From Cyanobacteriota bacterium (lineage in GTDB: Bacteria; Cyanobacteriota; Vampirovibrionia; LMEP-6097): DNA of 37,931 nucleotides. Of the stretch, positions 13,013 to 36,211 are shown piece after piece. Under the pieces are notes generated by a model that saw nothing but the letters and a program-made list of their open reading frames with translations, was not told the origin of the DNA and searched no databases. The stretch is taken from positions 1 to 37,931 of the forward strand of contig JAQCFG010000013.1 of the NCBI GenBank assembly GCA_027618255.1. The letters run 5' to 3'. Every line of letters begins with the position of its first letter. Position 1 is the stretch's first letter. The translations under genes were made by a program, and so were the position numbers.

Positions 13013-13549
13013 ATGATAGAAAAAATCATCTCCACTAAAACACTACATAAAGGCAAGTTCCTAGATTTTATTGAAGACCAGATAGAGATTGAGGTTGAGC
13101 CTGTTATAAAAGCAAGTCGTCAGTATTTTACTCATCCTGGTGGAGTTTGTATATTGCCAATTATTGGTGATCAAATTGCTTTAATAAAACAATATCGCAC
13201 TCCTGTACAAAAAATAATTTATGAAATTCCAGCTGGTAAGTTGGATTCAGGGGAGCAACCTTTTGAGGCAGCCAAAAGAGAGCTTCAAGAAGAAACTGGT
13301 TATAGTGCAGGCAAATGGACAGACCTTGGATTTATTTACCCTTGCCCTGGTTACTCTACCGAACGACTCTACGTCTATCTCGCTCAGGATCTAGACGCTG
13401 GCACGCAGAATCTAGACCACGGTGAAATCGTAGAGCTCGAGCTCATGACTATTGCTAAAGTAACTGAAATGATTCAGCAAGGGCTAATACCCGATGCCAA
13501 AACCATTGCGGCATTGTTTCTTGCGCAACAATATATTAGACCTGTTTAG
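13013..13549 (+). CDS. NUDIX hydrolase, ADP-ribose pyrophosphatase-like
   Basis: 178 residues. The full NUDIX box is present: Gly75, Glu81, then REL (89-91), Glu93, Glu94 and Gly96 in GKLDSGEQPFEAAKREL followed by QEETGY. The layout with an N-terminal beta region (TLHKGKFLDF) and IEIPAGKLDSGE matches the ADP-ribose pyrophosphatase subgroup, which hydrolyses ADP-ribose to AMP and ribose 5-phosphate. The exact substrate cannot be read from sequence. The last codons (IRPV and the TAG) lie inside the dispersed repeat at 13534-13651, so the natural C-terminus may have been changed by the repeat. Confidence 0.9.
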   Translation: MIEKIISTKTLHKGKFLDFIEDQIEIEVEPVIKASRQYFTHPGGVCILPIIGDQIALIKQYRTPVQKIIYEIPAGKLDSGEQPFEAAKRELQEETGYSAGKWTDLGFIYPCPGYSTERLYVYLAQDLDAGTQNLDHGEIVELELMTIAKVTEMIQQGLIPDAKTIAALFLAQQYIRPV

Positions 13550-13651
13550 AAACAGCGTTTCGAAGATACAGGTCGCTTAAAAAGGTAGCAACCATGCGTA
13601 ACGCATGTGTTGACCCTCTAGAGAATTGCGACTTTCAAAACAAGTCTATTA
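13534..13651 (+). repeat. dispersed hairpin repeat, copy A
   Basis: 118 bases with ends TAGACCTGT and ACAAGTCTA, an imperfect terminal inverted repeat. It contains a first hairpin (partly decayed here), the conserved AAAAAGGTAGCAACC, a second hairpin ATGCG-taa-CGCAT, and a third GACTT/AAGTC. Related copies lie at 24927-25046 (minus) and 35994-36113. It begins inside the NUDIX gene's last codons and ends 1 base before the stop codon of the convergent LuxR-type gene. Confidence 0.75.
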
Positions 13652-13652
13652 G

Positions 13653-13946
13653 TTAACTCAACATTATCAACGAATTCTTCAAGGCAATAACTACAGCTTC
13701 GGTTCTATTCTTAGCTCCTAGTTTTTGCAAGATACTTCTGACGTGATTTTCAACTGTCTTAGTACTCAAACCCAAATTGGCTGCAATTTCTGGATTGCGC
13801 AAACCCTCTTTGATTTGAATCAAGACTTCCATTTCACGTTTTGATAATCTACCCTTGGCACGTGTACCGTATTCTGATAATTTCTCATCAGTCGTTTCCA
13901 ACAACTCTCCTAACGGAATTGTTTTCTCTATTTGGTCATTAGTCAT
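13653..13946 (-). CDS. small LuxR/GerE-type DNA-binding regulator
   Basis: 97 residues, essentially only a LuxR-type helix-turn-helix (about 32-93): LSKREMEVLIQIKEGLRNPE, then IAANLGLSTKTVENHVRSIL and QKLGAKNRTEAV. There is no receiver or ligand-binding domain. The first 30 residues are acidic. It is the last gene of a minus-strand run metG-kdtA-lpxK and overlaps lpxK by 8 bases, so it is probably translated by coupling. It may be a free-standing HTH protein that responds to a partner or is controlled only by its own amount. Linkage to LPS genes suggests, but does not prove, an envelope-related role. Confidence 0.85.
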   Translation of the reverse strand: MTNDQIEKTIPLGELLETTDEKLSEYGTRAKGRLSKREMEVLIQIKEGLRNPEIAANLGLSTKTVENHVRSILQKLGAKNRTEAVVIALKNSLIMLS

Positions 13947-24926: not shown

Positions 24927-25046
24927 TAATAGACTTGTTTTGAAAGTCGGAATTATCTCCAAAGGCAACACGCTCATTCCGCGCGGTTGCTACCTTTTTT
25001 TGAGCGACCTGTACATCGAAACTGTGTTTCGATGTACAGGTCTAAT
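24927..25046 (-). repeat. dispersed hairpin repeat, copy C
   Basis: The best-preserved copy, about 120 bases on the minus strand. The first hairpin is a perfect 17-bp stem, GACCTGTACATCGAAAC with its complement, and a 3-base loop. The conserved run of A followed by GGTAGCAACC comes next. A second hairpin (GCAAC-C-GCGC / GCG-T-GTTGC) and a third (GACTT/AAGTC) follow. It begins 4 bases after the stop codon of the O-antigen-ligase-like gene and ends about 60 bases before the rpsU start. Confidence 0.8.
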
Positions 25047-25050
25047 CTGT

Positions 25051-26688
25051 TTAGAGGTCGATTTCGTGCCTGTTTCTTTCTTTTTTCTTAGGCATTGGTT
25101 TGAGCTTGGCAGCTTCTAGAGTTTCTTCAATATCAGCTGGAAGATCATCATGTAAGTAAGGTAATGGCAGCGCAATTATTGGACCTGTACGAAAGAAAGC
25201 ATGAATGCGGGCATCAGAGTTAGCTTGTCCGATATATGAATTAGCTTGGTAGCGTGGATCTTTAAGGATTTTGGAAATTTCTGGATTGCGTTTCAATGCT
25301 TGAGTTAAAAGGTCCTTAAAGAGTGCCTTATCGTGAGAATAGTTGGCAAATGCTTTAATTATTAGCCAGTATGGTTCAGGTCCATCCATGAAGAGAGCTT
25401 GATCAGCGGACTTATCCGCTTCTTCAAATTGTCTATTTGCTAGTCGAGCTGCGGCAAGGAAACCATGGAAGTAGGAAATATTGGGAGAGAGTTCAGTTGC
25501 TTTTTCAAGACTAATTAAGCTCTCTTGGATATTGCGATTAAGTAAGTCGGTGCCGCGACTAAAATGATAAAGCGAATTGAACTGGTCCCATTTGATTGCC
25601 TTATTGAAAGCACCTTGCGAATAATAATAATGACCAACAGCACTAGAAATAAAAATGATCGCTGCAATTGCATAGGCAACAGGCTTGGCATATTCGTGCC
25701 AGCTTGGTTTGAGTTGCTTAAAAGCAAAATTGGGTTTGAGAAAAGGTACCAAGATTAATGCTGCTAGTATATATTGATTAAAAACCATTAGTGTCGCATC
25801 AAGAATTGAAGTGATCATCAGTGTTAGAAATGCAGGTCGTGCGTGTTTGTAGACTAAGTAAAAAAGAATTAGACAAAGAGCCAAACCAAATAGTCCTTGC
25901 TCAAAAAGATAGTGAGTGAAGAAACCGTGACCGTGAGCAACTTGTTGATGCAACCTTGCTCCAAAAGTATCGTTGTGCGAGCGAAAGGGAGGAAAGTCAA
26001 TAGCAAAGGTGGCAAAACCATGTCCAAATATGGGTTTGGCTAGCCAGCCTTCGATTGATGATTGCCAAATAAAGATTCTTGACAATAATGAGAGTTGGAT
26101 AAAGCGATGAATTTTTTCAATATAAATAAATGAAAATACCAGCATGCAAGTTGCTATCGCCAGTAAATAGCGGACTTTAATAAATTTGGCAATTTGCGCT
26201 AAGTAAGCAAGTACTATTGTGGTTTTGGTTGAAAAGCTCAAAGCAATCCCCGAAAGGAAATATGTAATAAAACTTTCTTTGTTTTTCTTGGTGTAATAAA
26301 GTGAAAGAAATATCGGCGCCCAAATTAAAAGTGAACCCCTTTCGTAGAGACCATAATCGGTTCGATGAATAATAAAGATCATTATAAAAAGAGCAATTAA
26401 AATATATTTGCGTTCTTTTTCTGTTTTGTTTGTCCACCAAGGTTGGCTAGCAAAGGCAATGCAACTTGAAGTGATGAGCAAGTATTCAAGACTAAAACGT
26501 GGTTCTGATGCAAAGAAAAATCCAATTAGTAGAGTTATCCAAAATAAATAATATTGACTTGCTCTGTGTAGATTAAATAAAGCAAAGATAATTAAGCCAA
26601 GATGGCCCCACCACAAAGTCATCCCTTGCGGCGAAGCAAAGAAGTATATTAGAACAAAAATAGGCAGGCTTTGTAAGTATTTAAGCAC
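25051..26688 (-). CDS. O-antigen ligase / Wzy_C-type membrane protein with TPR-like C-terminus
   Basis: 545 residues with roughly ten hydrophobic segments in the first 350, then a soluble helical C-terminal part (about 360-545). The hallmark of the WaaL/Wzy_C superfamily is the large loop: FGHGFATFAIDF, then RSHNDTFG and HQQVAHGHGFFTHYLFEQGLFGLAL. The C-terminus has TPR-like repeats (SLYHFSRGTDLLNRNIQESL, EKATELSPNISYFHGFLAAA, EADKSADQALFMDGPEPYW). It probably transfers or polymerises lipid-linked glycans at the periplasmic face, but which substrate cannot be told. It starts at a GTG 36 bases after the stop of the upstream gene in the same operon. The dispersed repeat copy C follows its stop. 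Confidence 0.82.
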   Translation of the reverse strand: MLKYLQSLPIFVLIYFFASPQGMTLWWGHLGLIIFALFNLHRASQYYLFWITLLIGFFFASEPRFSLEYLLITSSCIAFASQPWWTNKTEKERKYILIALFIMIFIIHRTDYGLYERGSLLIWAPIFLSLYYTKKNKESFITYFLSGIALSFSTKTTIVLAYLAQIAKFIKVRYLLAIATCMLVFSFIYIEKIHRFIQLSLLSRIFIWQSSIEGWLAKPIFGHGFATFAIDFPPFRSHNDTFGARLHQQVAHGHGFFTHYLFEQGLFGLALCLILFYLVYKHARPAFLTLMITSILDATLMVFNQYILAALILVPFLKPNFAFKQLKPSWHEYAKPVAYAIAAIIFISSAVGHYYYSQGAFNKAIKWDQFNSLYHFSRGTDLLNRNIQESLISLEKATELSPNISYFHGFLAAARLANRQFEEADKSADQALFMDGPEPYWLIIKAFANYSHDKALFKDLLTQALKRNPEISKILKDPRYQANSYIGQANSDARIHAFFRTGPIIALPLPYLHDDLPADIEETLEAAKLKPMPKKKERNRHEIDL

Positions 26689-35944: not shown

Positions 35945-35985
35945 CGTAATCTTATCCATTCCGGGTTATTACGAGATTACGTTTT
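35945..35985 (+). terminator. possible terminator formed by the left arm of the inverted repeat
   Basis: CGTAATCT (35945-35952) pairs with AGATTACG (35974-35981), followed by TTTTT (the last G of the stem precedes the T-run). The loop is long (21 bases), so termination strength is doubtful. Confidence 0.4.
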
Positions 35986-35993
35986 TGCGTCTT

Positions 35994-36113
35994 TATTAGA
36001 CCTGTACTTCGAAACGAAGTTTCGAAGTACAGATCGCCTGAAAAAGGTAGCAACCTCAACGAATGTTGCGGGTTGCTTTTAGGATAATATTGACTTTCGA
36101 AACAAGTCTATTT
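35994..36113 (+). repeat. dispersed hairpin repeat, copy B
   Basis: About 119 bases. The first hairpin is GACCTGTACTTCGAAAC with its near-complement (one mismatch near the base) and loop GAA. Then AAAAAGGTAGCAACC, the second hairpin (GCAACC, inner CAAC-gaat-GTTG, GGTTGC) followed by TTTT, and the third GACTT/AAGTC. Compared with copy C, a T-A pair in the first stem is replaced by an A-T pair, and the second stem is paired with wholly different bases. Confidence 0.8.
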
Positions 36114-36151: not shown

Positions 36152-36211
36152 CTATTAAGAAGAACGTAATGATGTAATAACCCGGAATGGATAAGATTAC
36201 GTTTTGATATT

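Follow-up and report, generated by a model that had tools for sequence, protein, structure and literature searches.

A family of short palindromic elements with IS5-type ends, probably miniature transposons, between and within genes of Melainabacteria

Results

Three copies of a hairpin-rich unit in one contig

The window, by which we mean the whole 37,931-nucleotide stretch of DNA that was analysed, contains three related units that align over 110-113 bp with a mean column identity of 84%. Without target duplications, they occupy positions 13538-13647 on the plus strand (copy A, 110 bp), 24931-25043 on the minus strand (copy B, 113 bp) and 35998-36109 on the plus strand (copy C, 112 bp), each flanked on both sides by ATT. 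Copy C, which matched the covariance model described below at 106.5 bits, has hairpin 1 at 35999-36035 (+), whose near-perfect 17-bp stem carries the left terminal inverted repeat (TIR). This is followed by the conserved core AAAAAGGTAGCAACC at 36041-36055 (+), a motif that recurs across the genome, by hairpin 2 at 36050-36076 (+), which the fold and pair counts resolve into a basal GCAAC/GTTGC stem and an interchangeable inner stem, and by hairpin 3 at 36092-36108 (+), which, from sequence and fold, also forms the right TIR. The ATT triplets of copy C at 35995-35997 and 36110-36112 were assigned from the sequence and the general rule for target sites given below. The imperfect TIR, central core and hairpins described in the initial annotation are all present in the window copies, and folding z-scores against shuffled sequences were -6.8 for copy C, -3.2 for copy A and -8.9 for copy B.

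The same annotation placed every copy right after a stop codon, a rule that fails at copy A. This copy (ATT at 13535-13537 and 13648-13650), identified by its sequence, a covariance-model match and an empty site in a relative, has entered, in frame and ahead of the final codon, a NUDIX gene (13013-13549, +; NUDIX domain match and orthologue in a congeneric genome), whose C-terminus now runs into the element. The present stop codon of this gene (13547-13549) arose by a TCG-to-TAG change within copy A, later than the insertion, and the original TAA (13654-13656) was displaced. Copy B (ATT at 25044-25046 and 24928-24930), identified by sequence and a covariance-model match, lies 7 bp beyond the stop codon of the gene at 25051-26688.

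Copy C is itself enclosed by an inverted repeat with 42-nt arms (35945-35986 and 36160-36201). A long-stemmed hairpin with entirely different stem sequences occupies the same intergenic place in two relatives (G001 and G002), and the loop of the hairpin around the copy C position retains a promoter-like TTGA..TAAAAT. The G001 stem at this place resembles a dispersed CGGGT-GTAACG palindrome found at four loci of the window's own genome.

A multi-copy family in a few related genomes

The genome and its relatives were searched with a covariance model, as the initial annotation had proposed. The model, built from 39 distinct copies, found at least 139 matches at E <= 0.01 (150 candidates scored) in the 1.99-Mb own genome, or about 0.8% of its length, so the annotation's three copies, while genuine, are not the whole family. 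The core alone, allowing up to one mismatch, occurs 70 times, as compared to none for the reversed control. Among the relatives, all genomes compared being fragmented metagenome-assembled genomes (MAGs), the model matched 58 times in the congeneric MAG G001, 24 times in G004, which belongs to another genus of the same family, and twice in G002, with no matches in 56 others. A strict pattern scan returned two assemblies only, both Melainabacteria-type MAGs: Candidatus Melainabacteria SI037S4_bin4 and uncultured bacterium Loclat_bin-07551, the latter with more than 20 near-identical copies. The copies in these two assemblies match those of G001 and G004. Four main subfamilies share their ends, an A-run and the core, while both arms of the stems differ. 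No Rfam family reached its gathering score in the window, and the initial annotation had not recognised the element as a named family; no tRNA or tmRNA was found, and a search for phage carriage gave no exact match to the unit among viral contigs.

Evidence of insertion: target duplications and empty sites

An intact copy reads ANT-AGAC...GTCT-ANT, a unit of about 111 bp with the TIRs AGACCTGTTTCGAAA / AGACTTGTTTCGAAAG, or their equivalents in each subfamily, and a target duplication of 3 bp. Among 43 well-delimited copies, 41 carry the same base to the left of TAGAC as to the right of GTCTA (21 expected), with A preceding the flanking base in 40 and T following it in 41. A 1-bp duplication was rejected, since the single base is the N of an ANT triplet that is duplicated whole. 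The exact 3-bp duplication is present in 78 of 102 delimited copies from three genomes (ATT 37, AAT 36, ACT 3, AGT 2). In G004, near-identical copies, 18 of 19 of them with exact duplications, record a recent burst.

Sites lacking the element complete the picture. Where the window's NUDIX gene ends CAA TAT ATT [copy A] ATT AGT TAA, the G001 orthologue ends CAG TAT ATT AGT TAA, and the empty site reads caacagtatattagtTAA. The intergenic region that holds copy C measures 146 bp in G001 versus 262 bp in the window, a shortfall of about one element plus its duplication, and in seven relatives the MurE orthologue is missing precisely the 38 residues that a copy adds. Target duplications and empty sites together indicate insertion rather than inheritance. 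No transposase gene is present within the ~111-bp copies.

At two loci (L061:1147-1371 and L035:1147-1356) copies stand as head-to-tail pairs with a short common junction, the outcome expected if a unit inserts at an ANT beside its own end.

The ends resemble those of IS5-family elements

A search with Pfam DDE_Tnp_4 found a single fragment in G004, assigned to IS5-family transposases, and nothing in the own genome or in G001. The G004 gene is a 76-residue remnant with only one matching end, ATT followed by AGATCATTTGCGAAAGT, beyond its stop codon. No intact transposase was found, and the own genome has no match to PF13359 or PF13586.

Plasmid-borne IS5-family relatives have the following TIRs: AGACCTCTTCGGAAAC with an ATT duplication in Fukatsuia, AGACCTCCTGCGAAAGT with AAT in Deinococcus psychrotolerans, AGACATCTCC with AAT in Rippkaea and AGACCTCTTGCAAAAGT with TTT, which does not fit ANT, in ISCysp19. 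Three of the four relatives with ends found are thus flanked by ANT duplications; a fifth, from Nostoc, showed no convincing ends. The Deinococcus TIR matches the right end of subfamily 3 at 16 of 17 positions, and none of its shuffled versions reached 14 against any end. The similarity of the ends suggests that an IS5-type transposase acts on the unit. NCBIfam labels these transposases 'IS5 family' only; the ISL2 label follows the IS classification.

Other candidates were set aside. The own genome carries a split DDE_Tnp_1 transposase gene (209 + 255 residues, without an NCBIfam name; L065, C4:18110-21598), whose ends are not of the type seen here. No autonomous copy lies beside the lone TIRs of G004, which belong to two further MITE families. 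These are likewise flanked by ANT and have ends akin to those of the present unit, AGACCTGTTGCGAAAGTGCAAC...CGCAACAACTCT in one and AGACCTCTTTCGAAACC...GGTTTCGAAAGAACTCT in the other (loci L185, L188, L190, L191, L193, L196 and L199 in G004, and L058 in the own genome). A 490-bp repeat of G004, with copies 92% identical (L187:686-1175 and L192:728-1217), contains the left end of another MITE family.

TIRs, target duplication, empty sites and IS5-type ends together define a miniature inverted-repeat transposable element (MITE), and we are highly confident that the unit is a non-autonomous DNA transposon of about 111 bp, of the IS5 family and ISL2-like, which is tolerated in genes as a 38-residue linker. 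Of the readings first offered for the three copies, it is the MITE with a conserved fold that the TIRs, 3-bp ANT duplications, empty sites, IS5-family ends and the burst of near-identical copies in one relative bear out.

Position and orientation relative to genes

The other early reading was a 3'-end RNA element, whether terminator, processing or stability site, kept after stop codons. In its favour, each of the three window copies runs in the direction of the gene before it, and stable hairpins, paired changes and an excess of G.U-type changes on the plus strand (described below) also count for it. Genome-wide, however, copies lie with the upstream gene in 47 cases and against it in 48, and the copies near stop codons divide into 28 sense and 27 antisense, as judged from our own codon-usage calls of open reading frames rather than curated annotation. 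With such counts, the shared orientation seen in the window is a coincidence of three copies. Most copies are intergenic, many of these being located upstream of a gene, and a minority is found within genes. In addition, no U-run follows the plus-strand stems, no terminator was called at copy C, the target duplications and empty sites are signs of insertion, and about 14 copies are within reading frames. We therefore consider a 3'-end RNA element very improbable.

Paired changes in the hairpins

The paired change that distinguishes hairpin 1 of copies B and C, and the exchanged stems of hairpin 2, both pointed out in the initial annotation, are real and recur throughout the genome. Of the second basal pairs of hairpin 2, 42 are C-G, 21 are G-C and one is mismatched, and the inner stem of this hairpin exists in many complementary versions. 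An RNAalifold consensus lacked hairpin 2 because MAFFT had misplaced its arms, so pairs were counted within each subfamily; this gave 14 distinct double Watson-Crick changes, all pair statistics being taken over related copies. Single changes within stems comprised 33 of the G.T and 12 of the A.C class, as compared to 34 and 32 at unpaired positions (Fisher p = 0.03), which suggests constraint on the plus strand as a single-stranded nucleic acid.

The original argument that compensatory change favours selection on structure holds in part: the double changes and the G.T excess speak for it, but palindrome correction during replication could also yield some paired changes. Hairpin 1 occurs either with a short, TIR-like 5' arm or with a long arm perfected as if copied from its own 3' arm, as template switching would leave it. 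A strand-blind DNA process would not be expected to produce more G.T than A.C singles, however, and the inner stems of hairpin 2 vary in numerous respects. Correction in place of selection on structure is thus possible as the source of the paired changes, though we lean against it, and the three hairpins have probably been kept as paired structure on the plus strand. The fold may serve in transposition, in protection of the transcript, or, on the antisense strand, as a terminator-like hairpin followed by a U-run.

Insertions within genes are in frame

Insertion of copies in frame into genes was not noted in the initial annotation. The number of copies that interrupt long reading frames rose from 10 to 13 and then 15 as loci were added and criteria loosened, and we put it at about 14. 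All convincing cases are read through the plus strand of the unit in phase 0, with ANT as a codon. The unit is 111 bp long in all but L032, a shortened copy that was delimited at 103 bp and whose right end is damaged. When the flanks of 104 copies were joined, a different phase turned up once, in a weak case (L006, 110 bp). Each insertion adds 38 hydrophilic codons. The host genes encode MurE, GalE, RNase HII, MsrAB, PurL, MurI (glutamate racemase), a CoA-binding protein and a protein with a POR domain. For GalE, the alignment to the solved homologue 2c20 is split by the insert, with residues 3-65 of the homologue on one side and 64-321 on the other. As far as these alignments and reading frames tell, some copies sit inside essential genes, always in read-through orientation and frame. 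An intron, intein or translational bypass is not favoured, as the flank-joined gene insertions are essentially all in frame and open, and we infer that the inserts are translated as part of the host protein.

Openness alone does not explain the sense bias, since antisense phase 0 is also open in 75 of 105 copies. The crude odds of finding sense insertions only are (83/158)^14 = 1e-4 against the antisense frame and (83/217)^14 = 1e-6 over all open frames. In three diverged subfamilies the GRAVY of the sense peptide is -0.8 to -1.2, as compared to 0.0 to 0.3 for the antisense peptide, and in the antisense transcript hairpin 2 directly precedes a run of seven U. Either an antisense peptide that is not hydrophilic or a terminator-like antisense hairpin could make antisense insertions in genes harmful.

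An intrinsic terminator on the antisense strand (hairpin 2 followed by TACCTTTTTTT) might by itself, without any role for the peptide, explain why only sense copies survive in genes. The reverse strand does fold as a G+C-rich stem immediately before the U-run, and within 60 bp upstream of gene starts 26 copies are sense and 11 antisense. Spacers between tandem genes show no such bias within 150 bp (7 versus 8), however, and a terminator leaves unexplained why the gene insertions measure 111 bp and share one phase, so that we regard this account as rather unlikely. Selection could instead have acted on the sense peptide, with a benign, hydrophilic, stop-free frame of 37 codons evolved for settling in genes. 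Three diverged subfamilies do retain the open hydrophilic sense frame and the 111-bp length. Substitutions are evenly spread over codon positions (145/175/174), with no third-position excess, which gives no indication that the family as a whole is under amino-acid selection, and subfamily 2 (110 bp) spread despite having lost the frame; we consider a selected peptide rather unlikely.

Discussion

The transposon that we favour would work as follows. A DDE transposase supplied in trans would recognise the ends AGAC.T(C/G)(C/T)TGCGAAAG and insert the unit at ANT with duplication of 3 bp. Read as ANT AGA ... TCT ANT, the sense frame is open and hydrophilic, so that an insertion in this orientation and in the phase of the ANT codon would add a 38-residue linker (111 + 3 = 114 bp, or 38 codons) that the host protein may tolerate. 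Insertions in other phases or orientations would destroy the gene and be lost, and the remaining copies would survive between genes. A more speculative extension, which we would not yet favour, is that the lineage has adapted to life in genes by a length divisible by three, a 3-bp duplication, a benign, hydrophilic sense frame, a fold that in sense is compatible with both transcription and translation, and a terminator-like antisense strand that purges the wrong orientation. If true, this would provide a general route from IS5-type MITEs to protein-coding palindromic elements, perhaps including the Rickettsia palindromic elements (RPEs).

RPEs and the Wolbachia palindromic elements are 100-150 bp long, with TIRs, palindromic stem-loops and an open frame, and they occupy intergenic sites and also, in frame, conserved genes (PMC2229807, PMC3767692, PMC10969869). 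The present family shares their size, stem-loops, TIRs and same-strand, same-frame insertion in genes (about 14 here), and from this likeness in structure and insertion pattern it appears to work as RPEs do. Unlike RPEs, it belongs to a distant host phylum (Melainabacteria) and displays a clear ANT duplication and IS5-type ends; a review enters the target duplication of RPEs as '?' and describes the movement of such elements as unproven (PMC2229807). What is new here is a protein-coding palindromic family in a distant phylum with target duplications, empty sites, recent copies and IS5-family ends, which makes the mobility of such elements testable.

With IS5-family (ISL2-like) MITEs the family has in common its ends, AGACCTC.TGCGAAAG, and the 3-bp ANT duplication. 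It differs from them in its many in-frame gene insertions, its three conserved hairpins and its internal 75 bp, which as far as seen do not derive from a transposase gene. RUP, Correia/NEMIS and ERIC are likewise structured, non-autonomous and present in many copies of roughly 100 bp, but their termini are 5'-TA or their targets TA, and they lie chiefly between genes (PMC2229807), while the duplication here is ANT. Palindromic repeats with coding potential, described as protein-coding, are also known from the archaeon Methanocaldococcus jannaschii (PMC2996958), and resemble the present family, by description, in both respects.

The natural 38-residue insertions in MurE, GalE, RNase HII, PurL and MurI provide material on how proteins tolerate inserts. 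In one orthologous gene of two species (L040:4267-4377 and L143:576-686), the element sits at the same codon; one species has AGT/AGT as the duplication and the other AAT/AAT. The copy in the window's own genome is identical to young copies. These are perhaps two independent insertions at one site.
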